Both the position numbers and the translations under genes were made by a program. DNA of 39,745 nt from Deltaproteobacteria bacterium RIFCSPLOWO2_12_FULL_60_19 (GTDB taxonomy: Bacteria > Desulfobacterota > Binatia > UBA9968). Positions 20,287-39,745 of the stretch are shown in pieces. The stretch's first letter is position 1. Every line of letters begins with the position of its first letter. The notes under the pieces are model-generated. The model made no database searches. It was not told the origin of the DNA and was given only the letters and a program-made list of their open reading frames with translations. The DNA is taken from positions 1 through 39,745 of the forward strand of contig MGSS01000008.1 in NCBI GenBank assembly GCA_001798595.1. The letters run 5' to 3'.

Positions 20287-20287
20287 G

Positions 20288-21079: not shown

Positions 21080-21094
21080 GGGGTTCGCTCCTAC

Positions 21095-21222: not shown

Positions 21223-21244
21223 CTCCGCGCTCGATCATTCGGCC

Positions 21245-22839: not shown

Positions 22840-22861
22840 AGTCGCTCTCCTCCCTCATCTC

Positions 22862-22968
22862 GGTTCAAAGTTGTTCAAGTTGGCTCAACATGGTTCAAAG
22901 GTTCAAAGTGGTTAAACATGGTTCAAACGCCTTGAACAACCGTTGAACAATTTTGAACCTTTTGAACT
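22862..22968. repeat. GTTCAA/TTGAAC fold-back repeat after the catalytic subunit gene
   Basis: Left words are GGTTCAAAGTTGTTCAAG, GGCTCAACATGGTTCAAAG, GTTCAAAGTGG and CATGGTTCAAACG; right words are CCTTGAACAACCG, TTGAACAATTTTGAACC and TTTTGAAC. The same words and the CCTTGAACAACCGTTGAACAA core occur in the 21095-21222 copy. It ends at the stop codon of the catalytic subunit. Confidence 0.8.
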
Positions 22969-22969
22969 C

Positions 22970-25900: not shown

Positions 25901-26440
25901 GATCTGCACGAACTCGTCCTGGCCGCGGCTGTCGAACATGTATTTCGTCTTATTCTCCGGCGTCAGCTCCGGAAAGCCGGCGTCGGCCCAGGCTTTCCAG
26001 CCCTTGCGCACGATCGGGTGTCTCAGACGGTACGGGCCGTAGAGCACGCGGTGGAAGGTGTAGCCCTTCGCGCACTGGCGCGGGTTCCAATTCGCCGTGG
26101 CGTGGTTGCCGTAGAGATCGGCGTACTTCTGATAGTCGTAGGTGTTGCCGAGGCGGGTGACGATGCCGTTTCTGACGAAGGCGCGCACGCGGCAGGCGTG
26201 GGTGTCGTTCGGCGAGCAGACCCAGTCGAAGGCGCGGTCGTACTTATACTGGTCGCGGTAAATTTTCTCCCAGGCGCGATCGATCGAGCCGGCGAGAGGA
26301 TTCTCGCCGGGCCGCGCGGCCGCCAACAGACGGAGCGGCAGGGCCCCGCTCAGGGCCGCGGCGCTTGTTCCCGCGCCCATCCATCGCAAAAAATCGCGGC
26401 GGGTCACCCCGGTCAACTCGTCTCTTTTTTCATCGCTCAT
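22970..26440 (-). CDS. Molybdenum catalytic subunit, NxrA/NarG-like type II DMSO reductase family
   Basis: 1156 residues. A twin-arginine signal (TRRDFLRWMG, then an Ala/Leu-rich segment) indicates export by Tat. The N-terminal cluster motif is C75-x3-D79-x3-C83 with C123 following, in place of the HxxxCxxxC of NarG; an Asp ligand in this position is, to my recollection, also seen in Nxr-type enzymes. YTWHGDQAPGHPW holds the candidate Mo ligand Asp283, aligned with the NarG Asp. Other stretches (TRYSGDEGAKRL, YGPYRLRHPIVRKGWK) recall NxrA of Nitrospira-like organisms. The substrate could be nitrite/nitrate, (per)chlorate, selenate or a hydrocarbon, and cannot be decided here. ATG 26440 has AGGAG 8 bases upstream. 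Confidence 0.92.
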   Translation of the reverse strand: MSDEKRDELTGVTRRDFLRWMGAGTSAAALSGALPLRLLAAARPGENPLAGSIDRAWEKIYRDQYKYDRAFDWVCSPNDTHACRVRAFVRNGIVTRLGNTYDYQKYADLYGNHATANWNPRQCAKGYTFHRVLYGPYRLRHPIVRKGWKAWADAGFPELTPENKTKYMFDSRGQDEFVQISWEDVFQNIAKALNAISTRYSGDEGAKRLLAHGYQPEMVKAMGGAGTRTIKMRGGMGLLGVIGKYGMYRLNNSLALLDAKVRGVGPDKALAGRNFSNYTWHGDQAPGHPWVHGLQASDCDFNDLRNSKLIIMDGKNLVENKLTDSHWFIECMERGAKIVVIAPEYGPPSTKADYWLPIRPTTDAALWLGITRLMIDNKWYDETFVKRFTDFPLLVRTDNLQRLRAHEIFPGYKTPLSADGPSMKIQGLTREQHAKLGDYVIWDEKKNGPVALTRDDVGETMAKKGLAPALQGTFKVKLVDGKEVEAATLWTLYQTHLKDYDLDTVAEITQAPKKMIEELAHDIATMKPVAIHQGEGINHWFHATEMNRAAYLPLMLTGNIGKPGAGCHTWAGNYKAALFQGSPWTGPGFKGWVAEDPFEINLNPKAHGKEVHAHAYTKDEEPAYWNHGDKALIVETPKFGRKNFTGDTHMPTPTKAMIFSNVNLINNAKWAYEMIKNVNPNVEMIVSIDIQMTASIEYADIALPANSWLEFEGLEITASCSNPFLQIWKGGIPPVFDSRDDLVILAGIANALGDLTGDKRFRDYFAFAAPDKRGIYIQRLLDTCTTTAGYKLADIMAGKYGPPGGCLMNFRTYPRIPFYEQVHDSEPFHTDTGRLHAYADIPEAIEYGENFIVHREAPEATPHLPNVIVSSNPYIRPEDYGIPLSAEHWDDRTIRNVKMPWSKVKETKNFLWEKGFQFYCLTPKTRHRVHSSWSNVDWHMVYDSNFGDPYRIDKRAPSVGEHQLHMNPQAARDLGINDGDYVYVDANPADRPYLGAKPDDPFYKVSRCMLRVKYNHAYPYNIVMMKHAPFIATEKSVKAHETRPDGRALSENTGYQANLRYGSQQSVTRNWHMPMHQTDTLFHKAKVSMSFIFGGEADNHAINTVPKETLVRVTKAEDGGMGGKGIWKPATTGFTPDNENDFMKKYLAGELTKVKE

Positions 26441-26453
26441 AGCTCTCGCTCCT

Positions 26454-26574
26454 GTTCAGTTTCAAAGAGTTCAAAGTTGTTCAAGGTTGTTCAAAGGGTT
26501 CAACGTTGTTTAAGATTACTTAGGGCTTCAAAACAATTTTGAACCATGTTGAACTATTTTGAACCCCTTGAACG
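26454..26574. repeat. GTTCAA/TTGAAC fold-back repeat between cytochrome and catalytic genes
   Basis: Left: TGTTCAGTTTCAAAGAG, TTCAAAGTTGTTCAAGG, TTGTTCAAAGGG and TTCAACG. Right: GGGCTTCAAAAC, AATTTTGAACCATG, TTGAACTATTTTGAACC and CCTTGAACG. This is the third copy in one operon. It separates the fused cytochrome gene from the catalytic subunit gene. Confidence 0.8.
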
Positions 26575-26578
26575 ACTT

Positions 26579-28159
26579 TCATTTCGCTATTTTGAGATCT
26601 TGCCAGATAGTCACCGACTTTTTCCCGTCGCGGTCGCCGGCGCTGCCGTTCCAGACGGCGAAGGCCACCGGCACCGTCGCTCCCGGCGTCAGCGCCACGG
26701 CCTCTTTGCCCGTCGGCGCCAGTGTTCTGCGGAACATGACCCGATAAGAGGCTGCGCTGTAGATTCCGCGCGCGTCGATTTTCTGCTCGATCCGCGGCCG
26801 CGCTCTGAGCGTGCCGAAGCCCTGCGCCGTCAGATCTTCAGCCGGACTTTTCCGCTCCGGATCGGAGACGATATTTCCCGCGCCCCAGCCGGTGACGAAG
26901 GTCTTATTCGATTCGAGCGTAAGCGCATGGCGCGACGGTTGCTCCAGCGGAGAGCGCAGGAGGTTCGGATAGGAGTCGATGCCGAGGTTAGGGTAGAGTT
27001 TTTCGAGATCCTGAAACGCCGGCTCGAGATCGGCCTGGCGCTCCGACTTCCACATCCAGATGTTGATCGGCTTGCCGTTCTCGCCCATGGCGAAGAAGGG
27101 GGGATTGGGCGTGAGGGAGAATTGGGCGGCCACGGCATCGCGGAAGTCCTGCGGCCGCATCGCAGTGTGGTCATTGGTTTCGTCGCCCCACACGAGAAGC
27201 AGGGCGATCTCCTTCCCGTCGTGCAACGCTCTTACGGTCACCTCCTCAGGCCGGTCGCTGCGCCACCAAAGCGGCATCAGATGGAGATTGACCGGCAGGG
27301 TCGCACGCCACATGCCCGAGTCCGGGTGATCCGGCAACTCTTTCACGCGCGTGGCGACGATCTCGAACTTCTTCATCTCGACCCGCGCGCGCTGCGTATC
27401 GCCGGAGAGCGAGCGGACGAAGTTCACCAGGTGCCAGGCGTCGTCGCCGTAAGCCCAGTCGCTCGTCGGCATCGGCGTGCCGGGAATTCCGGCGACGATG
27501 CGGCGGTAGAGGGAAGCCGGATCGGGATTTCCTTTGAAGACGCCGAGCGTGAGATCGCGCGGGCGGGTCGGATAACCTTCCGTATCGACTTGCTCCTGAG
27601 TGCCGTCGCCCTTCGCCGTCGCCCCGTGACACGAGGCGCAGGCGTCTTTGTAGAGCTCGAGAGCGCGCGCCCTTGCCGCTTCGTTATACGGCGGCGCCGG
27701 CGGAACCCGAACGATGCCCTCTCCGCCGCTGCCGTCCGCCGCGGGCTGTTTCGGCGCCCTGACGGTCAACGGTTTTTCCGACAGAGATTTTACGTAATAG
27801 ACCAGCGCCCAGCGCTGCTCGACCGGCAAATGGCCCCAGGACGGCATCGCCGAGCCGGGCATCCCGCGCGTGATCGTGTTGAACAGATCCTCGTCGGTCG
27901 GCACGCCGTCCCAGGTCGAGATCAGGCGAAAGTTGGCCGCGACCAGGTTGCGCGGCTTGGGATAAAGGAGGTAGGCCGCCTCGCCGTCGCCACGCCCCTT
28001 TGGGCCGTGGCAGGCGGCGCACTGCTGAGTGTAGATCTGTTTTCCGAGAGCGACGAGCTTGGCCGACGAAGGCGGGGCCTTTAGCTCGGCGGTTTGGAGG
28101 GCAGCGGCAACGGCAAAGCTAAATAGCGCAGCGGCTAAGAGGAGAAAAATCCGTTTCAT
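26579..28159 (-). CDS. Di-heme cytochrome c fused to an ethylbenzene-dehydrogenase-gamma-like domain
   Basis: About 526 residues. A Sec signal peptide (MKRIFLLLAAALFSFAVAAA) is followed by two cytochrome c domains with CAACH (47-51) and CASCH (174-178) and candidate Met ligands in GMPGSAMPSW and GIPGTPMPTSDW. From about residue 250 a beta-rich domain resembles the heme-b gamma subunit of type II enzymes (EbdC/SerC/NxrC class), with LLLVWGDETNDHTAM and FFAMGENGKPINIWMWKS. It probably carries electrons between the catalytic complex and periplasmic or membrane carriers. It is the first gene of the operon. ATG 28159 follows GGGAGG, and a sigma-54 promoter lies at 28239-28224. Confidence 0.87.
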   Translation of the reverse strand: MKRIFLLLAAALFSFAVAAALQTAELKAPPSSAKLVALGKQIYTQQCAACHGPKGRGDGEAAYLLYPKPRNLVAANFRLISTWDGVPTDEDLFNTITRGMPGSAMPSWGHLPVEQRWALVYYVKSLSEKPLTVRAPKQPAADGSGGEGIVRVPPAPPYNEAARARALELYKDACASCHGATAKGDGTQEQVDTEGYPTRPRDLTLGVFKGNPDPASLYRRIVAGIPGTPMPTSDWAYGDDAWHLVNFVRSLSGDTQRARVEMKKFEIVATRVKELPDHPDSGMWRATLPVNLHLMPLWWRSDRPEEVTVRALHDGKEIALLLVWGDETNDHTAMRPQDFRDAVAAQFSLTPNPPFFAMGENGKPINIWMWKSERQADLEPAFQDLEKLYPNLGIDSYPNLLRSPLEQPSRHALTLESNKTFVTGWGAGNIVSDPERKSPAEDLTAQGFGTLRARPRIEQKIDARGIYSAASYRVMFRRTLAPTGKEAVALTPGATVPVAFAVWNGSAGDRDGKKSVTIWQDLKIAK

Positions 28160-28223
28160 TACTCGGCCTCCCATGGTCTTCTCGATTTAGTCGTTTGGAG
28201 CACGCGTGTCTGGCGCGTGGTGG

Positions 28224-28400: not shown

Positions 28401-28416
28401 TGGCACAATTTATGCT
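28401..28416 (+). promoter_or_regulatory. Sigma-54-like promoter for the divergent molybdoenzyme/UbiD operon
   Basis: TGGCACAATTTATGCT has GG (28402-28403) and GC (28414-28415) at correct spacing, with one deviation in the -12 box (TATGC for TTTGC or TTTGC-like). The predicted start is near 28427, only 2 bases before ATG 28429, so the first gene would be nearly leaderless. Confidence 0.6.
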
Positions 28417-28428
28417 CCACTATCTTAA

Positions 28429-28740
28429 ATGGCGCTGAGCGCAAACAACCTCGTCCGCGTTTCTTACCTCGGACTTGTGCGCAACGTGATCGGATGTCGG
28501 GAGGAAGAGGTCGAGGTGGCGCCCGGCATCACGGTCGGCGAGCTGCTCGCGCGGCTCATCGAAAAACACGGCGACCCGTTTCGCGCCAGCGTTTTCAGGT
28601 CGGCCAAAGAACTCCGCGCCACAACTCTCATCTGCGTCAACGATTGCGATATCGCTCAACTGCAAGGCTTTGAGACCCGGCTTGAGCGCGGGGAGAATCT
28701 GAGCGTCGTGGTCGGCGTCTATCCCCCGGAAGGAGGCTAA
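28429..28740 (+). CDS. MoaD/ThiS-like ubiquitin-fold protein 1
   Basis: 103 residues. A beta-grasp pattern (VRVSYLGLVRNVIG, PGITVGELLARLIEKHG, LICVNDCDI) ends in the C-terminal Gly-Gly (PPEGG) that MoaD-type sulfur carriers need for thiocarboxylation. MoaD is the small subunit of molybdopterin synthase. This one may be dedicated to the molybdoenzyme gene that starts 4 bases downstream, whose ribosome site GGAGG overlaps the end of this gene. ATG 28429 has no ribosome site and a very short predicted leader. A second copy lies before the second molybdoenzyme (37179-37469). Confidence 0.75.
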   Translation: MALSANNLVRVSYLGLVRNVIGCREEEVEVAPGITVGELLARLIEKHGDPFRASVFRSAKELRATTLICVNDCDIAQLQGFETRLERGENLSVVVGVYPPEGG

Positions 28741-28743
28741 GCG

Positions 28744-31275
28744 ATGGCATCTCCCAGAGAAGATACGTGGGTTCACAGCGTTTGCGACATGTGTTTCGCG
28801 GCGTGCGGGATACTCGCGCACCGCGTGGACGGAGTGTTGGTGAAGATCGAGGGCGATCCCAACTGCCCGGCCAGCGGCGGCCATCTCTGCGCCAAAGGGC
28901 AGGCGGGGCTGATCGGCCAGTACGATCCTTCCCGGGTCACGCGCCCTCTGCGCCGCGCCAATCCGCGAAAAGGGATCGGCGTCGACCCGAAATGGGAGGA
29001 GATCTCGTGGGAGACCGCGCTGTATATCCTGACGGACAAACTGACCAAGGTGCGGGAAAAAGATCCGCGCGGCCTGGTGATCTCCAGCTTCGATCAGATC
29101 GCGCTCTCTTATTTCATTCGCCCGGTCTGGGCGGTGGCCTACGGCACGCCGAACGCGGACTGGGTCGGTTACTACTGCGGCAACTACCTCCACGCCTCGA
29201 TGTATCTCACCAACGGCTCGTTTCATTCGGACTTCGATCTCGATTATTGCAACTACGCGATCCTCCTCGGCAACCAGCAGGGCTTTATGGCCGGGCTGAA
29301 CGCGACGGTGATGGCGCGGAAGATGGCGGACGCGCGCCGGCGGGGGATGCGCGTCGTGGCGGTCGATCCGGTCGGGACCAACGCGGCGGCGAAGGCGGAT
29401 GAGTGGGTGCCGATCCGTCCCGGCACCGACGGCGCTTTTATTTTAAGCATCATCCACGTGCTGTTGAATGAACTCGGCTGCTATGACCGCGACTTCTTGA
29501 GCTGCCGAACCAATGGCTCCTACTTGGTCAAAGAGGATGGCAGTTACCTGAAAGAAGGTCGCGACGGCAAACCGTTGGCCTGGGATCAAAAGAGCGGGAT
29601 GGCCGTGCCATTCGATGAAAACGGGATATCCCCCGCGCTTGAGGGTTGGTTTACGGCCGGCGGCGAGAGATGCCAGCCGGCGTTTCAGGCGTTAAAAGAA
29701 CACGTCAAAGCCTACACGCCGGAGAAGGCCGCGCCCATCACGACGGTGTCTGCGGCGACGATCCGGCGCATCGCGAAAGAGTTCGGCGAGGCCGCGCGGA
29801 TCGGCTCCACCATCGTCATTGACGGCAAAGTCCTGCCGTATCGCCCCGTCGCCGTGAACATCTACCGCGGCGCCGGCGCGCACAAGCACGGCACACACAC
29901 GGCGCTGGCGGTGCAGATCCTGAACATGATCGTCGGGGCCTACTACGTTCCCGGCGGCCATCGCGGCCCGAATCTCGTCGGTCCGGCCGGACGTTGGGGA
30001 CCGGGAGTCACGGCCGAGGGGATGATCACTCCGCCCTCCGCCATCGGTCACGGCGCGAAGTACTACGACTTCGAAGAGCGCGAGCCGGACGATCTCGGCC
30101 TGCACCAGCTCTTTCCCATCACCACCAACCGCAGTCCGATGTATCAACTGAACCTGCAAGATCCCAGTTTGTTCAAGCTTCCCTATACGCCGGAGATGCT
30201 CATCGTCTGCCGGCGCAATCTCATGATGAACAACGTCAATCCCGAGCTGGTCGCCGAATCGCTCAGGAAATTCCCGTTTATCGTGAGCTTCAGCACGCAT
30301 CTCGACGAAGTCGCCGAATTCGCCGACCTGGTCCTGCCCGAGCAGTATTACTTAGAGCGATTCGACCTCTTTCCCAACCGGCCGAGCCATACGATGAGCC
30401 CGGCCACGGGCCAGTTTTACTGGGGCTTGCGCCAGCCGGTGGTGGAGACGCAGGGAGAAGCGCGGCGCTGGATCGACGTGCTCTATGAAGTCGCCGGCCG
30501 CATGGGATTTTTAAACGATATCTACAAATTGCTAAACGTGAGCATGGGGCTCAAAGAGCCCTACAAGCTCGATCCTGAAAAGCGCTACTCGATGGACGAA
30601 ATCTACGACCGCTGGACAAAATCGTTGTTCGGTCCCGAGCGCGGGATCGAATGGTTCAAGCAAAACGGCTATCACAAAGTGCCGCGGGCCGTCGAAGAAA
30701 AGTATCCCGGTCCATTCATCAAGCCGCGCTTTCCGGTCTATTTTGAAAACATGCTGCGGGCCAAGCAGTCGGTGAAGAGCGTCGCCGCCCGCATGGGGCA
30801 CGACTGGGACACCTCCGACTACCAGCCGGTGCCCGATTGGAAACCTTGCCCCGCCTACGAAGACGGCAAAGGCGCCTACGATCTGTACGTGGTCAATTTC
30901 AAGATTCCGTTTCATAGCCTGTCGATCACCACGCAGAATCCGTGGCTCAACGATCTGGCCGAGCACAATCCGTACGCGTACAAGATTCTGATCAACGCCG
31001 ACACCGCCAAGGGCAAAGGGATCAACGACGGCGAGGAGATCTGGGTCGAGTCCGAGGCGGGGAAAGTGAAAGGCGAAGCGAAGCTGACCGAGTGCATCCA
31101 TCCGCAGGTCGTGGGGATCGCCGGCGTCTTCGGAAGCTGGGCGAAGGGAAAGCCGGTGGCTAAAGGCAAAGGCGTCCATTTCAACAGCCTGTTACCGATG
31201 TCTCTGGAGCGGATCGATCCGGTCTCCACGGGCGTGGATTCTTGCATCCGCGTCAAGGTTTCACGGGCTGCTTAA
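28744..31275 (+). CDS. Cytoplasmic PsrA/PhsA-like molybdopterin oxidoreductase, catalytic subunit 1
   Basis: 843 residues. The N-terminal [4Fe-4S] motif is C14-x2-C17-x3-C21-x27-C49. Family landmarks follow: YDPSRVTRPLRR, the GTPN segment with Cys145 in YYCGNYLH (candidate Mo ligand, as in polysulfide/thiosulfate reductases), WVPIRPGTDGA and a C-terminal molydopterin-binding domain. There is no Tat signal, so it is cytoplasmic, unlike PsrA itself. With the NrfD-like and ferredoxin genes that follow it forms a three-part quinone-linked enzyme. The reaction is unknown; the neighbouring UbiD suggests an organic substrate rather than sulfur. About the same architecture recurs in the paralogue at 37697. 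Confidence 0.88.
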   Translation: MASPREDTWVHSVCDMCFAACGILAHRVDGVLVKIEGDPNCPASGGHLCAKGQAGLIGQYDPSRVTRPLRRANPRKGIGVDPKWEEISWETALYILTDKLTKVREKDPRGLVISSFDQIALSYFIRPVWAVAYGTPNADWVGYYCGNYLHASMYLTNGSFHSDFDLDYCNYAILLGNQQGFMAGLNATVMARKMADARRRGMRVVAVDPVGTNAAAKADEWVPIRPGTDGAFILSIIHVLLNELGCYDRDFLSCRTNGSYLVKEDGSYLKEGRDGKPLAWDQKSGMAVPFDENGISPALEGWFTAGGERCQPAFQALKEHVKAYTPEKAAPITTVSAATIRRIAKEFGEAARIGSTIVIDGKVLPYRPVAVNIYRGAGAHKHGTHTALAVQILNMIVGAYYVPGGHRGPNLVGPAGRWGPGVTAEGMITPPSAIGHGAKYYDFEEREPDDLGLHQLFPITTNRSPMYQLNLQDPSLFKLPYTPEMLIVCRRNLMMNNVNPELVAESLRKFPFIVSFSTHLDEVAEFADLVLPEQYYLERFDLFPNRPSHTMSPATGQFYWGLRQPVVETQGEARRWIDVLYEVAGRMGFLNDIYKLLNVSMGLKEPYKLDPEKRYSMDEIYDRWTKSLFGPERGIEWFKQNGYHKVPRAVEEKYPGPFIKPRFPVYFENMLRAKQSVKSVAARMGHDWDTSDYQPVPDWKPCPAYEDGKGAYDLYVVNFKIPFHSLSITTQNPWLNDLAEHNPYAYKILINADTAKGKGINDGEEIWVESEAGKVKGEAKLTECIHPQVVGIAGVFGSWAKGKPVAKGKGVHFNSLLPMSLERIDPVSTGVDSCIRVKVSRAA

Positions 31276-31296
31276 GCGAAAAAAGGAGGGATGAAG

Positions 31297-32169
31297 ATGA
31301 CAGCGCGCATCGATGAGTTTCTGATCGGTGTCAAGCCCCAGCGCGAATGGGGCTGGCTGGTCATCACCTATCTGTTTCTTGGCGGCGCCGGCGCGGGGCT
31401 GTTTCTCATCTCGCTCTATATCGATCACGGTTGGGCCGGCGCGCTGGGACTCGTCGTCGTGATATCGGGCACCGGGTTGCTCTTGCTCGATCTCGGGCGG
31501 CCGGAGCGCTTCTGGCGCGCCTTTTATCGGCCGCAGAGCTCGTGGATCAGCCGGGGCTGTTTCTTCATCACGCTGCTGGTCGCGCTCGGCGCGCTGCAAG
31601 TCGCGCTGGGCGTCTTCGAGATAGAGTTGTCCCCGGGCATCGCCACGGCCGTGAAGCTCGTCTCCGCCGCAGCCGCAGTGCTCGTCATGATCTACACCGG
31701 CTTTGTCTTGTCTCCTTCCGCGGCGATCCCATTTTGGAACTCGACTTTTTTTCCGATCATCTTTTTCGCTTACTCGCTGCTCGCCGGCATCGACATTCTC
31801 ATACTCACCTCGCCTTTGCTCCCCGGCCCCGCTCTCGATCTCGGCGCGCTGGAGGGTTGGCAGGCCTATCTCGCGCTCGGTTGCTTGATCTTCGTGCTGA
31901 GCCATCTCTCGGTGATGTCCGGCTCCGCAACGGCCGCGCGCGAGTCGATCCGGCTATTGACTCGCGGACGCTGGGCGACTCTCTTCATCGGGGGCGTCAT
32001 CGGCCTGGGTCTGGTCGTGCCGCTGCTGCTTGGCTGGCCGTTTGCCGGAAGGTCCGACATGCAGACGATCTTCGTCATGACGGCGGTTTTGGCGATCCTG
32101 CGGCTTTTCGGCGACTATCTCTTTCGCTTTCTGGTGATTCGCGCCGGCATGTACGATCCGCTGCTCTAA
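31297..32169 (+). CDS. NrfD/PsrC-type membrane subunit
   Basis: 290 residues with about eight hydrophobic segments (for example GWLVITYLFLGGAGAGLFLI, VVVISGTGLLLLDLG, ATLFIGGVIGLGLVVPLLL). The GGAGAG and LDLGRPERFWRAF stretches are typical of NrfD-like quinone-interacting subunits. It would link the soluble catalytic and ferredoxin subunits to the membrane quinone pool. ATG 31297 is preferred over ATG 31291 because AAGGAGGG lies at better spacing. It lies between the catalytic and ferredoxin genes. Confidence 0.9.
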   Translation: MTARIDEFLIGVKPQREWGWLVITYLFLGGAGAGLFLISLYIDHGWAGALGLVVVISGTGLLLLDLGRPERFWRAFYRPQSSWISRGCFFITLLVALGALQVALGVFEIELSPGIATAVKLVSAAAAVLVMIYTGFVLSPSAAIPFWNSTFFPIIFFAYSLLAGIDILILTSPLLPGPALDLGALEGWQAYLALGCLIFVLSHLSVMSGSATAARESIRLLTRGRWATLFIGGVIGLGLVVPLLLGWPFAGRSDMQTIFVMTAVLAILRLFGDYLFRFLVIRAGMYDPLL

Positions 32170-32184
32170 AAAAGGAGTTGCACT

Positions 32185-32787
32185 ATGACGCGCTACGGCA
32201 TGGTCCTCGATCTCAATATGTGCATCGGCTGCAACGCCTGCACGATAGCCTGCAAGGCCGAACATGCCTCGCCTTCGGGAGTCTTCTTCGCCAAGGTGCT
32301 GGAGAAAGAAGTCGGCAAGTTCCCCGCGGCGCGCCGCGTCTTTCTCCCCGTGCTCTGCAATCACTGCGAGCAGCCGGCGTGCAAGGAGGTCTGTCCGACC
32401 GGCGCGACCTCCAAGCGGGAAGACGGCGTCGTCGTGATCGATTACGATCTCTGCATCGGCTGCCGCTCCTGCATCGAGGCCTGTCCTTACGGCTCGCGGA
32501 CGTTCTACGACGGCAACGGCGCGTACTACCCCGGCTACACGACTCTCTTCGAGACCGCCAAGCAGAACATTCCCGAAGGCGTCGTGATGAAGTGCAACTT
32601 CTGCGTCGGCCGCGTCGATCAGGGACTCGACCCCGCCTGCGTGCAGACCTGCCCGACCGAATGCCGCGTCTTCGGCGATCTCGACGATCCGCAGAGCGAG
32701 GTCTCGCAGCTCGTCGCGGCGAAAAAAGCACGCCCACTCCTGCCGGAGAAAGGGCTGAATCCCTCGGTCTTCTACATCGGAGGCTGA
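32185..32787 (+). CDS. Four-cluster ferredoxin subunit, PsrB/DmsB-like
   Basis: 200 residues. It has sixteen cysteines in four groups: CIGCNACTIAC (13-23), CNHCEQPACKEVCP, CIGCRSCIEACP and CNFC...CVQTCPTEC, the pattern for four [4Fe-4S] clusters. It carries electrons between the molybdenum subunit and the NrfD-type membrane protein. There is no signal peptide, in line with a cytoplasmic complex. ATG 32185 follows AAGGAG; it begins 15 bases after the membrane subunit. Confidence 0.95.
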   Translation: MTRYGMVLDLNMCIGCNACTIACKAEHASPSGVFFAKVLEKEVGKFPAARRVFLPVLCNHCEQPACKEVCPTGATSKREDGVVVIDYDLCIGCRSCIEACPYGSRTFYDGNGAYYPGYTTLFETAKQNIPEGVVMKCNFCVGRVDQGLDPACVQTCPTECRVFGDLDDPQSEVSQLVAAKKARPLLPEKGLNPSVFYIGG

Positions 32788-32820
32788 GGCCGTCAGGATG
32801 CTTTAGCTGGATGCTCGCTT

Positions 32821-33870
32821 GTGAAATCTTTCATTCAATGTAAACCCCGCCGCTTGAGGCGGGCACAAAACCGATGGGGTTTCCAAAGGGGAGAAGCGGC
32901 AGCTCTCCCCTTTGGTCGAACACGGGGATTCAAACCCCGTGTTCGATATAAGTTGATCGCCGCCTTCTATCTTCTCCTCGCGATCCCGCATCCGCTCGCC
33001 GCCCAAAAGATCACAATCCTCTACAGCAACGCGACTTTTACCGGCACGGCGCTCTTCGTGGCCAAGGACGCGGAGCTTTGCAAACAGAAAGGGATCGATC
33101 TCGAGCTGGTGCTCGGCGGCGGCTCGGCGCCCACCGTGAGCGCCATCGTCGGCGGCTATGTGCAATTCATTCACGTCTCGGCTTCTTCCATCGTCAACGC
33201 CGCCTTGCAGGGCGGGCCGATCGTCATCGTCGCCAAAGTGATGGGGCCGCCTCCTTACAAGCTCGTCGGCGGCAAGTCGATCAAGAACGTCGCCGATCTC
33301 AAAGGCAAAAGGATCGCGGTCAACCGGTTCGGCGGCGCTCCCGACTTTTTGCTGCGCCAGAGTTTGGCGAAGAACGGGCTGGAGGTTCCGAAGGAGGTTA
33401 CGATACTCCAGACCGGCGATCCGACGGCAAGGCTGGGCTCTCTCTTCAGCGGGGCGATGGACGCCGCGATGCTGCTCGTGCCTGAGGAAAAAGTGGCGGT
33501 GGAAAAAGGCTATCCCGTCATCATTGATTTTGCCGCGCTTGGGCTGCCTTACGTCAACATCGTGTTCGGCGCCAACAAAAGATTTCTCGAACAGAGCCCC
33601 GGTTTAGCGAGAAGCTTCCTCGGCTGCTACTGGGACGGCGTCAGAAAAGCGAAGGAGGAGCCGGAGATCGCCAAAAGGGCATTGGCCCATTGGACGCGCG
33701 CGAGCGATGCGTCTCTGCTCGACTATACCTATAAAACCTGGCGCGCCGACTATGCCCCGCAATCGCTTAAGGTCGAGAGCAGGGAACTCGAACTGATACT
33801 AGCCTCCGCGCCCAAGCCGGCGAGCCAAAAAGAGGCTCCGCAACTGCTCGATATGCGTTATCTCCCGTAG
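32821..33870 (+). CDS. ABC-type substrate-binding protein (NMT1/SsuA-like)
   Basis: 349 residues if read from GTG 32821. The recognisable protein begins at a signal-peptide-like stretch (KLIAAFYLLLAIPHPLAA, cut before QKITILY), then a periplasmic binding fold with LFVAKDAELCKQKGIDLELV, GGYVQFIHVSASSIV and DLKGKRIAVNRFGG. This is the family that binds taurine, nitrate, thiamine precursors or aromatic acids. The first about 40 codons are read through a palindromic element (32842-32946), so the original start was displaced or the gene starts at TTG 32953. No permease or ATPase gene is adjacent, so it may act as a stand-alone sensor or with a remote transporter. Confidence 0.82.
   Translation: MKSFIQCKPRRLRRAQNRWGFQRGEAAALPFGRTRGFKPRVRYKLIAAFYLLLAIPHPLAAQKITILYSNATFTGTALFVAKDAELCKQKGIDLELVLGGGSAPTVSAIVGGYVQFIHVSASSIVNAALQGGPIVIVAKVMGPPPYKLVGGKSIKNVADLKGKRIAVNRFGGAPDFLLRQSLAKNGLEVPKEVTILQTGDPTARLGSLFSGAMDAAMLLVPEEKVAVEKGYPVIIDFAALGLPYVNIVFGANKRFLEQSPGLARSFLGCYWDGVRKAKEEPEIAKRALAHWTRASDASLLDYTYKTWRADYAPQSLKVESRELELILASAPKPASQKEAPQLLDMRYLP
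32842..32946. repeat. Composite palindromic element at the 5' end of the binding-protein gene
   Basis: Three stacked dyads are present. AAACCCC (32842-32848) pairs with GGGGTTT (32876-32882) around an inner CCCGCC/GGCGGG hairpin. CCAAAGGGGAGA (32883-32894) pairs perfectly with 32904-32915. TCGAACACGGGG (32916-32927) pairs perfectly with 32935-32946. The unit interrupts the N-terminal coding region without breaking the frame. Confidence 0.75.
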
Positions 33871-33889
33871 GGTCGATGACGAGGTAAAA

Positions 33890-35383
33890 ATGAATCTGCG
33901 CGGAGAGCTTCACCCGACTTACACCGACTTGCGAGAGTGGCTGGAAACAGTGGAGAAGCTGGGGGAGCTCAAGGTCGTGCGCGGCGCGCATTGGGACCTG
34001 GAGATGGCGGGGCTTGCCGAGATCGTCTCGCGCGAGGCGAAAGGCGAGGCGCCGGCCATGCTGTTCGACGAGATCACGGATTTTCCGCCGGGCCGTCGCG
34101 CGCTGTTCGGCCAGCTCGATTCGGTAGGCCGTCTCGCGCTGACGCTCGGATTGTCGCTCGACCAGCCCGACAGGATTTCCTGCGTCAGGGCGTGCAGAGA
34201 CAAGCTCAGCAAGCTGGAACTGCTCCCTCCGCGCGTCGTTCCGCGCGGCAAAGTGCAGGAAAATCTGCTCGAGGGAGAGCGTATCGATCTATTCCAGTTC
34301 CCCCTGCCCAGGCACCACGAGCTGGATGGCGGCCGGTACTTCGGGACGGCTCACTGCGTCGTCACGCGCGACCCCGACACCGGCTGGGTCAACCTGGGAA
34401 CTTACCGCTGCATGGCGTTCGGCAAAAACTCGGTCGGGCTTCACATGAGTCCCGGCAGGCACGGGCGCACCGCGCGGGACAAATACTTCGAGCGCGGGCA
34501 GCCGTTCAAAGTCGCCGTCGCGGTGGGCGCGGACCCGGCGCTTTTCCTGGCGAGCACGATGGCGGTGCCCGCCGGAGTTTCGGAATATGAGTTTGCCGGC
34601 GGGCTCAAGGGCCGGCCGATCGAAGTCTTTGAGGGGCCTTACACCAAGCTGCCGATTCCGGCGCATGCCGAGATCGTGATCGAAGGAGAATGCCTTCCCG
34701 GCGAGACTCATGACGAAGGGCCGTTCGGCGAATGGGCGGGCTACTACGCCAACAACGGCTTGACGCCGGTGCGCGAGCCCGTGCTCCGCATCAAGTCTCT
34801 ATGGCATCGCACCGATCCGATTCTCACCTGCGCGCAGCCCGCGCGGCCTCCGGGGTACAATTTCGCTTTCTGCGTTTTCCGTTCGGCTATGATCTGGGAC
34901 GAGTTGGAAAAGGCCGGCGTTCCCGACGTGCGCGGGGTATGGTGTCACGAGGCGGGATCGAGCAGGCTCTTCAACGTCGTCGCCATCAAGCAGCGCTACC
35001 CCGGCCATTCCCGCCAGGCCGGCATGATCGCTTCGCAGTGCGCTTCGGGCGTCTATATCGGCAGATACACCGTGGTCGTCGATGACGACATCGATGCGAC
35101 CAACCTCGCGGACGTCGTCTGGGCCATCGCGACGCGCACAGATCCTGAAAAATCCATTGAAATTTTTCGGCGCGGCCGGAGCAGCTCCGCCGACCCCGCC
35201 GTGTCGCCGGACGACAAAGGGTCCGACAGGAATCCCGCAGCCGTGTTTACTTCCAAGGCGGTGATCGATGCCTGCCGGCCCTATGAGTGGAAAGAGCGGG
35301 CTTATCCGGTGGTCGAGGTCAGCTCCGAGCTGCGCGGCCGGCTGCTGGCCAAGTGGAGGGACGAGTTCGAGGGAGTGCTTTAG
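33890..35383 (+). CDS. UbiD-family prenylated-FMN-dependent (de)carboxylase
   Basis: 497 residues, the usual UbiD size. The catalytic R-E-E set is visible: Arg173 in GTYRCMAF, and Glu276 and Glu281 in DEGPFGEWAGYY. These positions closely match those of fungal Fdc1. The enzyme removes or adds CO2 on alpha,beta-unsaturated or aromatic acids with prenyl-FMN made by UbiX, which is not in this window. Its place among catabolic redox genes instead of quinone synthesis genes suggests a role in degradation or carboxylation of an aromatic compound (inference). ATG 33890 has a weak GAGG site and lies 19 bases after the binding-protein gene. Confidence 0.92.
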   Translation: MNLRGELHPTYTDLREWLETVEKLGELKVVRGAHWDLEMAGLAEIVSREAKGEAPAMLFDEITDFPPGRRALFGQLDSVGRLALTLGLSLDQPDRISCVRACRDKLSKLELLPPRVVPRGKVQENLLEGERIDLFQFPLPRHHELDGGRYFGTAHCVVTRDPDTGWVNLGTYRCMAFGKNSVGLHMSPGRHGRTARDKYFERGQPFKVAVAVGADPALFLASTMAVPAGVSEYEFAGGLKGRPIEVFEGPYTKLPIPAHAEIVIEGECLPGETHDEGPFGEWAGYYANNGLTPVREPVLRIKSLWHRTDPILTCAQPARPPGYNFAFCVFRSAMIWDELEKAGVPDVRGVWCHEAGSSRLFNVVAIKQRYPGHSRQAGMIASQCASGVYIGRYTVVVDDDIDATNLADVVWAIATRTDPEKSIEIFRRGRSSSADPAVSPDDKGSDRNPAAVFTSKAVIDACRPYEWKERAYPVVEVSSELRGRLLAKWRDEFEGVL

Positions 35384-35406
35384 CAGCGATTCAAAGGGGG
35401 ATGTGG

Positions 35407-36804
35407 ATGCCAAACTCAACTCCGGCGGGAGAAAATAACGGCGGCGAACTGAAATTGGACGACGGCTCTCGCGTCGCGGTGATCGGCGGCGCGCCCGCCG
35501 GTTCTTTTTTCAGCTACTTCCTGCTGCAAACGGCGCAGCGGATAGGCTTGGATCTCCAGGTCGATATTTACGAGCCGAGGGATTTTTCCCTTGCCGCGCC
35601 TCAAGGCTGCAACATGTGCGGCGGAATCGTCTCGGAGTCGCTGGTGCAATCGCTGATGGTCGAAGGCATCGAGATGCCTCCCAACGTCGTCCAGCGGGGG
35701 ATCGACTCTTACGTTTTGCACATGGCGGAGGGGAGCGTCCGCATCGACACTCCGCTCCACGAGAAGAGGATTGCGGCGGTCCATCGCGGCAACGGCCCGC
35801 GCGGGGCTAAGGAACACGAATGGCGTAGTTTCGACGGCTATCTGTTAGAACTGGCGGCGGGCAAGGGCGCCCGCGTGGCGCGGGAAAGAGTGGACGGCGT
35901 GGCGTGGCGGGACGGCAAGCCGCAGATCAAGACCCGCGGCGGCTTGTCCCAACCGTACGATCTGCTTGCGGTGGGGACCGGAGTCAACAGCGGCGCGCTA
36001 AAAATATTCGAAGAGCTGGGGTTGGGTTATCAAGCCCCGCAAACCGCGAAAACCTATATCCGGGAACTTTACCTCGGCCGGGAGATGATCGAGAAGCACC
36101 TGGGCAGCTCCATGCATGTCTTTCTCCTCAACATGCCCCGGCTGGAATTCGCCGCATTGATCCCCAAAGGGGACTACGTCACGCTGGTCCTCCTCGGCGA
36201 GATCGATGCTGCGCTCGTGGAGACTTTCCTCGCCGCTCCCGCGGTGAGCCGGTGTTTGCCAGCCGACTGGCGCGCGGTCAAAGAGTTCTGCCATTGCTCG
36301 CCGAAAATCAATATCCAAAGCGCGGTCCAACCTTTCGCCGACCGGATCGTCTTCATCGGCGATTCCGGAGCGACCCGGCTGTACAAAGACGGCATCGGCG
36401 CCGCCTACCGCACGTCAAAGGCGGCCGCCCTGACCGCCGTCTTCGACGGCGTGTCGAGCGAGGCCTTTCGCCGCCGCTACTGGCCCGTCTGCCGCAATAT
36501 CTCTACGGACAACGCTCTGGGGAAGCTGATCTTTTTGGTCACCCGGCATATTCAACGCTGGCCGCATGATCGGCGCGCCGTGTTGCGCATGGTCTCTAAA
36601 GAGCAGCAGGGCAACGGTCAGCGCCGGATGAGCATGGTGCTGTGGGATATTTTCACCGGCAGCGCTCCTTACAAGGATATTCTCTTGCGCACTCTCCGGC
36701 CCGCTTTTTTAGCACGGGTGATGTGGTTCGTAGCCACCGATTTTTGGATCAAGATGAACGGAGGATCTCATGGAAACGGGCGGGTTGGGCAAGATATACC
36801 GTGA
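35407..36804 (+). CDS. FAD-dependent oxidoreductase (geranylgeranyl-reductase-like)
   Basis: 465 residues. The N-terminal dinucleotide fold VAVIGGAPAGSFFSYFLL has the GxGxxG-like pattern, and IVFIGDSGATRLYKDGIGAAY is the FAD ribityl GD motif seen in geranylgeranyl reductase and flavin hydroxylases. A Cys pair in GCNMCGG lies near residue 70. It may reduce a double bond or pass electrons to a quinone, but the substrate is unknown. ATG 35407 is chosen over ATG 35401 because AAAGGGGG then has 6-base spacing. Its end overlaps the next gene by 35 bases. Confidence 0.82.
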   Translation: MPNSTPAGENNGGELKLDDGSRVAVIGGAPAGSFFSYFLLQTAQRIGLDLQVDIYEPRDFSLAAPQGCNMCGGIVSESLVQSLMVEGIEMPPNVVQRGIDSYVLHMAEGSVRIDTPLHEKRIAAVHRGNGPRGAKEHEWRSFDGYLLELAAGKGARVARERVDGVAWRDGKPQIKTRGGLSQPYDLLAVGTGVNSGALKIFEELGLGYQAPQTAKTYIRELYLGREMIEKHLGSSMHVFLLNMPRLEFAALIPKGDYVTLVLLGEIDAALVETFLAAPAVSRCLPADWRAVKEFCHCSPKINIQSAVQPFADRIVFIGDSGATRLYKDGIGAAYRTSKAAALTAVFDGVSSEAFRRRYWPVCRNISTDNALGKLIFLVTRHIQRWPHDRRAVLRMVSKEQQGNGQRRMSMVLWDIFTGSAPYKDILLRTLRPAFLARVMWFVATDFWIKMNGGSHGNGRVGQDIP

Positions 36805-37144
36805 CGGCGAAGTGATCGTGCGCCAAGGGGAAGCGGGGGATTGCATGTTCGTCATCCAGGCGGGGGAGGTGGAGGTGTTTCGGGAGGACGGCAAGCAGCG
36901 GGAGGTCCGCTTGGCGGTGCTGCGCGAGAAAGACTTCTTCGGCGAGATGGCGCTGTTCGACCGCGAGGTTCGCTCGGCCACGGTGCGCGCGCTGGCCGAG
37001 GCGCGGGTGCTCACTGTGGATCGAAAGAGCTTCCTCCGCAGAGTGCACGAGGACCCTTCGCTGGCGTTTCGGGTCGTAGAGCAGATGTCGCACCGCATCC
37101 GGGAGCTGGACGCCGAGCTGACTCGGCTCAAGACCGGGAACTAG
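36770..37144 (+). CDS. Stand-alone cyclic-nucleotide-binding domain protein
   Basis: 124 residues, a single cNMP-binding beta-roll (VIVRQGEAGDCMFVIQAGEVEVF, FFGEMALFDREVRSATVRA) with the phosphate-cassette FGEMALFDxxxRSATV. It lacks the DNA-binding HTH of Crp/Fnr proteins and so is not a classic transcription factor. It may sense a cyclic nucleotide and bind a partner such as the FAD protein, whose gene it overlaps by 35 bases (GGAGG site at 36760). Pairing of such a domain with an FAD oxidoreductase hints at allosteric control (inference). Confidence 0.85.
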   Translation: METGGLGKIYRDGEVIVRQGEAGDCMFVIQAGEVEVFREDGKQREVRLAVLREKDFFGEMALFDREVRSATVRALAEARVLTVDRKSFLRRVHEDPSLAFRVVEQMSHRIRELDAELTRLKTGN

Positions 37145-37178
37145 GCGGCGGAGAAGGATGCTCGGAAGGAACGAGAGA

Positions 37179-37469
37179 ATGGTCGTCAATGTCCGCCTGT
37201 TCGGCATACTCGCCATTTTAGCCGGCGAGCGCATGGTGGCTTTCGAGATGGAAAGCGGCGCGACTTTGGGCGACGTGATAACGGGGTTGGGCAAACGCTT
37301 CGGGAGAGAATTCGTCGATCGGATTTTCAGGATTCCGGGCGAAATGCACTCGTATTGTCAGGTTTTCGTCAACGACGCGCAGGTGAACGATCTCGATGTG
37401 GAGTTGAAATGCAACGGCTCCCCGGCGGAAGTGGGGATTATTCTTCTAATGGCGTCTGAGGGAGGATAG
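37179..37469 (+). CDS. MoaD/ThiS-like ubiquitin-fold protein 2
   Basis: About 96 residues. It has a beta-grasp pattern (VNVRLFGILAILAG, GATLGDVITGLGKRFG, CQVFVNDAQVNDLD) and a C-terminal Gly-Gly (ASEGG). ATG 37179 has GGAAGGA 8 bases upstream; ATG 37158 is an alternative. Like the first copy it precedes a PsrA-like molybdoenzyme gene, though here a 137-bp fold-back element has entered the gap. It probably supplies a sulfur carrier for molybdopterin or a modification of that enzyme (inference). Confidence 0.75.
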   Translation: MVVNVRLFGILAILAGERMVAFEMESGATLGDVITGLGKRFGREFVDRIFRIPGEMHSYCQVFVNDAQVNDLDVELKCNGSPAEVGIILLMASEGG

Positions 37470-37500
37470 CAGGCCGTTGAAAAAGCTCCATCTACGGTCA

Positions 37501-37636
37501 GCCCGCCAGGGAATCTCTCTCCGGGCCGATGCGATACGTCGGTGTTGCGCTGCTCCTACAAGATGAGAGCAGCGACGAGGTACGATTGGTACTCTTCGTC
37601 CCACGCATCGGCCCTTCGAGAGACCCCCAGGCGGGC
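37501..37636. repeat. MITE-like element with 33-bp imperfect terminal inverted repeats
   Basis: 37501-37533 and 37604-37636 are inverted repeats with 27 of 33 matching, including perfect ends GCCCGCC/GGCGGGC and GGGCCGATGCG/CGCATCGGCCC. An inner CGCTGCTC/GAGCAGCG dyad is also present. It lies in the 227-bp gap between the MoaD-like gene and the second molybdoenzyme. The flank CAGGCCGTTGAAAAAGC also looks like a common repeat edge. No transposase is encoded. Confidence 0.6.
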
Positions 37637-37696
37637 GCTGGAGTGCGGCAGTCGCGGAATGATGGTGTCGTGCATTGAGGGAAGGAGAGCGTGGTT

Positions 37697-39745
37697 ATGG
37701 AAGCAGTCTCGGAAACGACTCAAACGTGTGGCGCGCGCGACGACCTTTGGATTCCGTCCACCTGCGGTTTGTGCTACGGCACTTGCTCGATCCTCGCCCA
37801 CCGAGTGGACGAGGTTCTGGTCAAGATCGAAGGGAATCCTGACAGCGCGGTCGGCAAGGGGCGGCTCTGCGGTAAAGGCGTGAGCGGCCTCATGACGCAC
37901 TACGATCCCAACCGGGTGCGCGTCCCGCTGCGGCGCACCAACCCGGTGAAAGGGATCGGCGTGGATCCGGGCTGGAAAGAGATTTCGTGGGACGAGGCTC
38001 TGGACGAAGTCGCCTGGCGGCTGCGCAAGCTGCGCGCCGAAGATCCGCGCAAGCTCTTCATCCAGCGGACTACGACCGTCACCTCCAGCCGCACGCCGAT
38101 GCAGGTTTTCGCCGCGGCTTTCGGCACGCCCAACCGCTCTTCGGCCGGCGGCGGCCTCCACTGCGGCAACGGCGCGCATCTGATCAGCGGCATAATGCAC
38201 GCCTCGTGGTCGGTAGTGCCGGATTTCCAGTACTGCAACTACGCGGTCTACTTCGGCGCCTCGAAAGGCCACGGCGCGGGTCACGCCTCCTGCTCCAACA
38301 TGGGCATGGCGGCGGACGCTCGATCTCGCGGCATGAAGATGGTCGTGGTCGATCCGATGTGCAACTTCGCGGCGGCGAAGGCGACCGAGTGGGTGCCGCT
38401 TCGCGTGGGGACGGATGCCGCCCTGGCGCTCGCAATGTGCCACGTGATGGTCAACGAGCTCGGCACATTCGACGCGCCTTATCTTCGGGCCAAGACCAAC
38501 GCGGCTTATCTCCTCGGTCCCGACAAACTCTACGCGCGCGATGTCGCAAGCGGCAAGCCGCTTGTTTGGGATTCGAGCGTGAATGAAGCGCGGCCTTACG
38601 ATGCGGCGGAAGCCGATGACATGGCGCTTGAGGGAGACTTCACCGTGAACGGCGTCTCCTGCCGGCCGGCGTTTCAGCTCCTGAAAACGCACTTGAGCAA
38701 GTTCACGCCCGAGTGGGCCGAGCCGATCACGACCATCCCGGCGAAAGACATCCGGCGGCTCGGAACCGAGTTTGCCCGCGAGGCGCGCGTCGGCAGCACG
38801 ATCGTGATCGACGGCGTGACCGTTCCCTACAGACCGGTTGCGGCGATCGCCTTCCGCGGATCGCAGGGGCACATGAATTCCGTCTACAACTTTCTCGCCG
38901 TCGATCTTTTGAACCAGCTCGTAGGCTCGGCCGACATGGCGGGAGGATGTCTCGGCTTCAACCCTGCGAGCCACGGCCACCCGGAGACGGGCCGCCCGCG
39001 CTATATCCCGAAGCCCGGTCCCGACGGTTTGATGGTGACCGGCAGTTGGATGGCGCACCACGTTCCCTATCCGATTCGCGAGCCGCGCCTGCCTGAAGAG
39101 CTCGGGATGCAGGATCTGTTCGTTCTCTGCCAGACCTCGCCGTTTTCGGATTCCGCGGACCGCGAGGAGATGTGGAAAAAGTTCGAGCTTCCCTACCGGC
39201 CGGAGATCCTGCTCAACTATGGGACCAACCTGCTGATGAGCATCGCCAACAAAGAGACGGTGGCGAAATCCCTCGCGCAATTCAAATTTATCGTCTCCTT
39301 CGACCTGTTTTTGACCGAGTCGTCGGAGTTCGCCGACATCGTGCTGCCGGATTGCGATTATCTTGAGTCCGTCGATTCGCGCCCCAACTTCCCCTTCATC
39401 TTCAGCCTGCCGGGAGGAATGGGCGAGTGGTGTTGGCCGATCAAACAACCGACCGTCGCGCCCGAGGGCGAGCAGCGGCGCTCAAGCGAGGTGCTGATCG
39501 ATCTGGCCGACCGGATCGGCATGCGGGAAGACTTAAACGCCGCCTACAATGCGATCCTCAAGCTCGAAGGGCCGTTCCGCTTGCAATCGGACCGGAAATA
39601 TTCCTACGAAGAGGTCTGCGACGCCGAGCTGAAGACGAACTTCGGCGCCGAGCGCGGGCTCGAGTGGTTCAAGAATAACGGCCTCATCAAGTGGCCCAAA
39701 AAGCCGGAAGAGGTTTACTGGCGCCACTTCGTGGACGTGCGCGTG
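37697..39745 (+). CDS. PsrA/PhsA-like molybdopterin oxidoreductase, catalytic subunit 2 (cut by right edge)
   Basis: The frame from ATG 37697 is open to the last base (683 codons) with no stop, so the C-terminal part is missing. It has the same cluster spacing as subunit 1: C23-x2-C26-x3-C30-x27-C58. It also has HYDPNRVRVPLRR, the GTPN segment with Cys156 in HCGNGAHL (candidate Mo ligand), TEWVPLRVGTDAA and GSTIVIDGVTVPYRPVA, closely paralleling the first copy. There is no Tat signal. AAGGAG lies 9 bases upstream. The two subunits are ancient paralogues, each with its own MoaD-like gene. Whether this copy has its own NrfD and ferredoxin genes lies beyond the window. Confidence 0.9.
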   Translation, partial: MEAVSETTQTCGARDDLWIPSTCGLCYGTCSILAHRVDEVLVKIEGNPDSAVGKGRLCGKGVSGLMTHYDPNRVRVPLRRTNPVKGIGVDPGWKEISWDEALDEVAWRLRKLRAEDPRKLFIQRTTTVTSSRTPMQVFAAAFGTPNRSSAGGGLHCGNGAHLISGIMHASWSVVPDFQYCNYAVYFGASKGHGAGHASCSNMGMAADARSRGMKMVVVDPMCNFAAAKATEWVPLRVGTDAALALAMCHVMVNELGTFDAPYLRAKTNAAYLLGPDKLYARDVASGKPLVWDSSVNEARPYDAAEADDMALEGDFTVNGVSCRPAFQLLKTHLSKFTPEWAEPITTIPAKDIRRLGTEFAREARVGSTIVIDGVTVPYRPVAAIAFRGSQGHMNSVYNFLAVDLLNQLVGSADMAGGCLGFNPASHGHPETGRPRYIPKPGPDGLMVTGSWMAHHVPYPIREPRLPEELGMQDLFVLCQTSPFSDSADREEMWKKFELPYRPEILLNYGTNLLMSIANKETVAKSLAQFKFIVSFDLFLTESSEFADIVLPDCDYLESVDSRPNFPFIFSLPGGMGEWCWPIKQPTVAPEGEQRRSSEVLIDLADRIGMREDLNAAYNAILKLEGPFRLQSDRKYSYEEVCDAELKTNFGAERGLEWFKNNGLIKWPKKPEEVYWRHFVDVRV

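Follow-up and report, generated by a model that had tools for sequence, protein, structure and literature searches.

Two molybdoenzyme modules beside a binding protein-UbiD gene pair in an uncultured deltaproteobacterium, with a possible role in the catabolism of aromatic or unsaturated acids

We analyzed a stretch of 39,745 bases, hereafter the window, which is the whole of contig MGSS01000008.1 from Deltaproteobacteria bacterium RIFCSPLOWO2_12_FULL_60_19 (genome of 4.19 Mb in 162 contigs). An earlier note, made from the sequence alone, had named ten genes in its right-hand part: two genes for MoaD-like proteins, two for catalytic proteins of the dimethyl sulfoxide (DMSO)-reductase family (Mo1 and Mo2), and one each for an NrfD-type membrane subunit, a four-cluster ferredoxin subunit (Fer4), a binding protein, a UbiD-family (de)carboxylase, a flavin adenine dinucleotide (FAD)-dependent protein and a cyclic nucleotide monophosphate (cNMP)-binding protein. 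Pfam and NCBIfam searches of the window proteins found all ten on the plus strand and backed their families, in the case of the FAD protein through a match to TIGR02032 below the cut-off. The note had also read them as one operon with short gaps or overlaps. This spacing holds at most junctions but fails at two, where dispersed repeats leave gaps of approximately 165 bases (Fer4 to the binding protein) and 221 bases (second MoaD-like gene to Mo2). The ten genes fall into adjacent modules and do not form one conserved operon. The MoaD-like, Mo1, NrfD and Fer4 genes recur as a group (module A) and the binding protein and UbiD genes as a pair (module B); the FAD and cNMP genes are a separate pair (module C), and the second MoaD-like gene and Mo2 make up module D. 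A single conserved ten-gene operon was rejected, as the complete set occurs in none of the other fetched loci and the FAD-cNMP pair lies separately in all six other genomes that have it.

Module A opens with a MoaD-like protein of 103 residues (28429-28740), which matches ThiS of Pfam above the cut-off (E 5e-6) and moaD_arch below it, and ends in Gly-Gly (PPEGG). Mo1 (28744-31275; 843 residues) has the molybdopterin oxidoreductase and Fe4S4 domains of Pfam, with Fe4S4 cysteines at positions 14, 17, 21 and 49 and Cys145 as the likely metal ligand. No twin-arginine translocation (Tat) signal was found on Mo1, whose N-terminus reads MASPREDTWVHSVCDMC; across the family, a twin-Arg-like motif lies within the first 45 residues of 16 out of 145 uncurated open reading frames (ORFs). 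The NrfD-type subunit (31291-32169; Pfam NrfD, E 5e-28), which may carry a quinone site, is followed by Fer4 (32185-32787; Pfam Fer4_11, E 1e-22). Sixteen of the 17 cysteines of Fer4 fall into four cluster-type groups, and its nearest NCBIfam entries are ArrB and DsrO, both below the cut-off. In module D, the second MoaD-like protein (37158-37469) also has 103 residues and a Gly-Gly end (ASEGG); it has no Pfam match and matches SAMP1 and moaD_arch of NCBIfam below the cut-off. Mo2 (37691-39745; Pfam molybdopterin oxidoreductase) is 44% identical to Mo1 and is severed by the contig end after 685 residues; a relative (L046) has 877.

Module B begins with an NMT1/SsuA-like binding protein (32953-33870; Pfam NMT1, E 6e-22). 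We propose the TTG at 32953 as its start; the mechanical ORF begins at 32821, ahead of the repeat. The UbiD-family protein (33890-35383; 497 residues; Pfam UbiD, E 8e-67) scores above the cut-offs of both Pfam (225 versus 23.3 bits) and TIGR00148 (284 versus 244.85 bits). Its best match in the PDB is 7pda (370 bits), and its best NCBIfam score is that of phenylphosphate carboxylase beta (TIGR02724; 304 bits versus a cut-off of 469). The intact R-E-E set described in the earlier note was found again, in that GTYR (residue 170) and EGPFGE (residue 276) are present and presumably carry these catalytic residues (R173, E277 and E282 of Fdc1). Its putative reaction is a decarboxylation dependent on prenylated flavin mononucleotide (FMN). 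In its length, its motifs and the presence in the same genome of one flavoprotein gene of UbiX size, it resembles the known UbiD/UbiX decarboxylases; unlike them, it is one of approximately 65 paralogs and is linked to genes of the DMSO-reductase family.

Two of the groupings seen in the window recur in relatives, namely the PsrABC-like complex with its MoaD-like gene and the binding protein adjoining UbiD. The order MoaD, Mo1, NrfD, Fer4 is found in L057 (the same place as L059) and in L052, where a binding protein follows, and the Mo1 and Mo2 modules are also adjacent in L136. The relative of the binding protein in L052 (521 bits) lies beside the Mo1 module, and another (504 bits) lies beside a UbiD (884 bits) in L256; the window thus joins links that are separate elsewhere. 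Since the L052 contig stops directly after the binding protein, a UbiD gene may or may not follow there. Close UbiD relatives with a nearby binding protein and no Mo gene occur in L255, L256, L257, L259 and L260.

For the family of Mo1 and Mo2, a scan of public genomes gave at least 524 confirmed relatives, 80 of which were kept (78 distinct loci). The listed matches come from Deltaproteobacteria, Chloroflexi, Beta-, Gamma- and Alphaproteobacteria, Actinobacteria including Eggerthellaceae, Firmicutes groups, archaea and others. We retained 166 Mo ORFs (> 300 bits and > 720 residues), or 145 after dropping repeats identical over residues 201 to 600; shorter or frameshifted ORFs, including Mo2 of the window and L079, fall outside this set. 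Within 3 kb and on the same strand, the 145 genes are accompanied by Fer4 (57 genes), NrfD (45) and MoaD (62), the last lying within 50 bp of the Mo gene in 40 of the 62 cases.

We then measured how often UbiD genes lie near Mo genes. The expected number was derived from the UbiD density of each genome and from the space remaining on each contig, with a Poisson model and evenly spread UbiD genes. In 12 related genomes, a UbiD gene occurs within 3 kb of 18 out of 79 Mo genes, compared to 6.3 expected, and six Mo genes have one within 300 bp on the same strand, compared to 0.30 expected. The pairing extends to other genomes (7 out of 66 Mo genes within 3 kb), in three Chloroflexi, two Betaproteobacteria, one Rhodospirillaceae and one metagenome-assembled genome labelled Bacillota. 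Chance alone was rejected as the source of UbiD genes beside Mo genes on the basis of 18 versus 6.3, with the cautions that an even spread is assumed and that the window is itself among the 18. The earlier note had let its reading depend on UbiD and molybdoenzyme genes co-occurring beyond this contig. They do so in both sets of genomes, and therefore the reading stands for that pair.

In the same 12 genomes, a Mo gene lies within 3 kb of 7 out of 16 UbiDs that are at least 61% identical to that of the window, and of 1 out of 60 other listed UbiDs. This comparison covers 76 listed UbiD places (above approximately 46% identity) and 93 Mo places; UbiDs of lower identity, some of them beside Mo genes (L041, L045, L076), lie outside it. 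The genome of the window has 64 UbiD domain hits and 66 matches to the window UbiD, so that chance neighbours are likely. Each of the 32 further genomes from this order had 16 to 60 scored UbiDs, with 126 to 136 candidates in one of them, G007 (an 8.3-Mb assembly with 9% contamination), and UbiD was found in none of the six genomes from other families of the class.

The catalytic proteins themselves belong to a known superfamily, in which they form an uncharacterised branch. Against NCBIfam, PhsA scores 279 bits with Mo1 and 201 bits with the cut Mo2, and its cut-off of 694 bits is not reached. A profile built from 19 paralogs gave 249 bits for PsrA, 243 for ArrA and 172 for acetylene hydratase in the PDB. 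The predicted structure of Mo1 (predicted local distance difference test, pLDDT, 92) aligned in VIA-align to PsrA with Z 36.4 and a root-mean-square deviation (rmsd) of 2.6 over 676 residues, to ArrA with Z 35.4 and rmsd 3.0 over 708 residues, and to acetylene hydratase with Z 32.7 and rmsd 3.1 over 659 residues, while Foldseek placed ArrA at the top. In the profile alignment, Cys145 of Mo1 shares a column with a Cys of ArrA and one of acetylene hydratase (Cys141), both of which we take to be metal ligands.

PsrA and ArrA are thus the nearest solved folds. As in PsrABC and ArrAB, Mo1 has an N-terminal Fe4S4 site and a Cys at the metal-ligand position, and it lies beside a Fer4 partner and an NrfD partner, the latter also known from Psr. 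However, Mo1 is only approximately 21 to 26% identical to PsrA and ArrA and has no Tat signal, and its locus differs from theirs in the dedicated MoaD-like gene and in the UbiD and binding-protein neighbours. The catalytic subunit of the PsrA/PhsA type is Tat-exported and periplasmic; the NrfD and Fer4 partner genes of that type are present beside Mo1. The two other enzymes with which the earlier note had suggested comparing the active site are more remote. The metal ligand of pyrogallol transhydroxylase is Ser, whereas Mo1 has Cys145 at this place, and the relation in sequence is weak (50 bits for 4v4c with profile A1, versus 249 bits for PsrA). Acetylene hydratase has the fold and the Cys ligand position in common with Mo1, which, unlike it, has Fer4 and NrfD partners. 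When aligned via the Fe4S4 motif, the place of its catalytic Asp13 is taken by Phe18 of Mo1 (CDMCFAAC), and acetylene-hydratase chemistry was ruled out for Mo1 because this Asp is absent. Passages of PMC12096430 discuss Asp13, which stands beside the second Fe4S4 Cys.

A likeness to enzymes acting on organic substrates is also apparent. Parts of PMC7028382 report that the catechol dehydroxylases of Eggerthella and Gordonibacter belong to the DMSO-reductase family, with acetylene hydratase nearest to them, and that loss of a Thauera homolog impairs growth on 3,5-dihydroxybenzoate; an architecture with a 4Fe-4S partner subunit appears in sections of PMC11574389 and PMC12771579. The family of Mo1 resembles these enzymes in its superfamily, its many paralogs and its 4Fe-4S partner proteins, and a partner gene of this type lies beside Mo1. 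Our Mo-family profile recovered unassayed relatives from Eggerthellaceae/Coriobacteriales with a Cys-Gly-x3-His motif; those in L114, L118 and L131 have Tat-type signals and, within the loci fetched, lack a MoaD gene, unlike Mo1. A further parallel is the tungsten aldehyde oxidoreductase (AOR) of Aromatoleum, an enzyme of the AOR superfamily, whereas Mo1 and Mo2 belong to the DMSO-reductase family. Its operon aorABCDE has two MoaD-like genes and a four-cluster ferredoxin subunit, as does the window, and a role of the MoaD-like genes in cofactor maturation is suggested in the portion of PMC6365974 that concerns them.

Taken together, these data are compatible with a catabolic region for aromatic or unsaturated acids, made up of the two bis-molybdopterin guanine dinucleotide (bis-MGD) oxidoreductase modules and the binding protein-UbiD pair, a reading to which we give about an even chance. 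It retains from the earlier note the hydroxylation or reduction that would be linked to (de)carboxylation, which the co-occurrence of Mo and UbiD beyond the contig favours, and drops the single joined operon. The binding protein would capture the acid, and Mo1, facing the cytoplasm, would remove (or add) a ring hydroxyl, with Fer4 and NrfD linking it to the quinone pool as the source (or sink) of electrons. Cofactor maturation would be the task of the dedicated MoaD proteins, a role also suggested for the MoaD-like genes of the Aromatoleum AOR. UbiD, with prenylated FMN made by UbiX, would remove (or add) the carboxyl group. The products would enter a pathway like that of benzoyl-CoA (coenzyme A) reductase of the class I type, and further genes of module D would lie beyond the contig end. 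Ring (de)hydroxylation, quinone coupling and UbiD are brought together here because of the gene setting, the Thauera homolog and the Aromatoleum MoaD genes. Between the two directions we lean slightly to reductive dehydroxylation over hydroxylation.

The genome offers some of the surrounding functions. Of its two flavoprotein-family genes one is UbiX-sized, and two genes belong to the COX1 family. There are three HGD-D gene pairs, one of them beside a BcrA/BcrD-type ATPase, which looks like a class I benzoyl-CoA reductase and could be a 2-hydroxyacyl-CoA dehydratase. A CoA-transferase gene lies upstream of UbiD-Mo2 in two betaproteobacterial loci (L075, L081) and a PaaK-like ligase gene lies beside a relative, indicating acyl-CoA chemistry.

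The best named relatives of Mo1, which are PhsA, PsrA and ArrA, and the Mo-Fer4-NrfD subunit plan, which is that of PsrABC, would equally suit ordinary reductases of inorganic sulfur or arsenic that have UbiD nearby by chance. With approximately 65 UbiD genes in 4.19 Mb, chance neighbours are indeed common, as the 6.3 expected among 79 illustrate. Nevertheless, the excess of UbiD is approximately three-fold within 3 kb and 20-fold within 300 bp (six cases), the PhsA score, the best in NCBIfam, remains far under its cut-off, and the missing Tat signal, the dedicated MoaD genes and the neighbours of CoA-ligase, CoxLMS-like and CoA-transferase type in some relatives do not fit such enzymes well; we regard this explanation as unlikely. 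Rather unlikely too, in our judgement, is that Mo1 and Mo2 are water-dependent ring hydroxylases that feed quinones ahead of decarboxylation by UbiD, like the Thauera 3,5-dihydroxybenzoate route, in which hydroxylation reportedly comes before decarboxylation. The gene anatomy suits either direction, the two COX1-family oxidases could drain the quinone pool, and parts of PMC7028382 place the Thauera homolog in an operon for dihydroxybenzoate. On the other hand, the reactions that the cited passages describe for characterised enzymes of the nearest organic-substrate branch are reductions of the substrate. Finally, UbiD could be a carboxylase, or it and the binding protein could form a separate pathway, in either case apart from that of the Mo modules. 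The lead of phenylphosphate carboxylase beta among the NCBIfam scores and the five loci in which UbiD relatives lie near a binding protein with no Mo gene agree with such a separation, but the linkage of Mo and UbiD (18 out of 79 versus 6.3; 7 out of 16 versus 1 out of 60) makes it distinctly unlikely.

Several observations weigh against a catabolic region of the kind proposed. The likeness of Mo1 to catechol dehydroxylases would run through unassayed relatives and not through assayed enzymes, and both profile and structure score PsrA and ArrA above acetylene hydratase. The expected number of UbiD neighbours presumes their even spread, and the window, which was chosen for this feature, contributes one of the 18. 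UbiD is missing from the surrounding 3 kb of 120 of the 145 Mo-family genes, although many are cut by contig ends, and just three have both UbiD and Fer4 within this distance, which makes the combination seen in the window a rare one. Of 23 genomes in the bacterial family, 11 have an expanded UbiD set and no close Mo-family member, as do all ten genomes of the order outside it. Moreover, as the HGD-D proteins may be 2-hydroxyacyl-CoA dehydratases, the benzoyl-CoA reductase is itself only surmised.

Among the titles and abstract openings listed from the open-licence literature, we found none that names the Mo-UbiD gene combination. If the proposed catabolic region is real, its genes form a unit that may enable uncultured bacteria, including several from groundwater, to process aromatic acids anaerobically, and it names concrete pairs of enzymes (Mo and UbiD) for assay. 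The organic-substrate members of the family are described mainly from gut Actinobacteria in the passages cited, and a parallel radiation partnered with MoaD and UbiD would widen that range. Many new (de)carboxylases would be available from the approximately 65 UbiD paralogs of one 4.2-Mb genome.

Within the tree of 145 Mo sequences, Cys is kept at the ligand position in 122, and Phe is aligned there in 23. The 23 Phe-type sequences form one clade with full support and a shortened loop, which lacks Cys in 17 of them; the other six have one, located six positions beyond the aligned place. Because the Phe type is one clade, it represents a single evolutionary change and not 23. Fer4 occurs within 3 kb on the same strand of 56 out of 122 Cys-type and 1 out of 23 Phe-type genes; when only genes with at least 1.5 kb of sequence on both sides are considered, the counts are 36 out of 78 and 0 out of 13. 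UbiD, in turn, lies within 3 kb of 16 out of 122 Cys-type and 9 out of 23 Phe-type genes. Fisher tests on ligand type overstate independence in these comparisons, as the Phe type is one clade. Examples are L041:10589-13204, L055:10546-13203, L051:6577-9216 and L070:1738-4239, and the sources are related genomes or records labelled Deltaproteobacteria. L070 is an exception in having Fer4 and NrfD genes directly before it; its predicted structure (pLDDT 89) has the same fold as Mo1, with ArrA as the first match. Phe-type enzymes may be hydratases, lyases or transhydroxylase-like, and would prepare substrates for decarboxylation by UbiD, of which each genome in the lineage has dozens of paralogs, in the genome of the window served by what would be a single UbiX. 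That this widespread clade of the DMSO-reductase family, with its own MoaD and UbiD, is an anaerobic funnel for aromatic acids, including possibly non-redox bis-MGD enzymes of the Phe type, we consider possible but doubtful.

Module C comprises a FAD-dependent, geranylgeranyl-reductase-like protein (35401-36804; TIGR02032, 28 bits, below the cut-off) and a protein of 124 residues with a single cNMP-binding domain (36770-37144; PF00027, E 1e-24). Judged from the reading frame and the upstream AAAGGGGG, the FAD protein probably starts at 35401 rather than at 35287; neither Pfam (at 0.001) nor the PDB (at 0.1) yields a match to it. It matches strongly in 7 out of 39 genomes, including its own, and with 18.7 bits in an eighth. 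In all seven, the cNMP gene is the next after the FAD gene, the frame of which is broken in G022. Neither UbiD nor a Mo gene of the same family was found near the pair in the fetched stretch of any of the six other genomes, and for this reason we take it as a bystander rather than a part of the pathway. That the cNMP protein is a dedicated sensor for the pathway was likewise rejected, given that in other genomes it also trails the FAD gene where neither UbiD nor a Mo gene of the family lies nearby. In L240 (G022), a distantly related Fer4/NrfD/Mo-like group lies right before the pair (weak matches, with 40 and 32 bits for Mo).

The two repeats at the gene junctions of the cluster belong to short dispersed families that resemble miniature inverted-repeat transposable elements. 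The first, with hairpins and no strand assigned (32830-32950), lies directly before the binding-protein gene; 13 copies in the genome, that of the window included, cover at least 115 of its 121 bases at 93 to 100% identity, besides partial copies. The second, with inverted repeats and again no strand (37468-37640), lies between MoaD2 and Mo2 and is 79 to 100% identical in 40 scored of 108 candidate places in the genome.

Divergent from the Mo1 module, the minus strand of the window (19345-28174) carries type II genes of the DMSO-reductase family, encoding an alpha subunit of 1,156 residues with a Tat motif, a beta subunit, a heme subunit with cytochrome c domains and a chaperone; none of these proteins reaches the cut-off for any named enzyme. 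In L050, L143, L166, L167, L168 and L171, a comparable NarG/NarH-like pair lies divergent to a different Mo clade. Elsewhere in the genome of the window, L039:829-6399 (contig C58) is a nitrogenase-like cluster that encodes a 3-hydroxyacyl-CoA dehydrogenase, two NifD/E-like proteins and a protein of 586 residues with two NifH/CfbC-like stretches. It is followed by an aldehyde-dehydrogenase-like gene (judged by its start), a Fer4-NrfD-MoaD-Mo module and a PaaK-like ligase, and this gene order is kept in part in L043 (G004).

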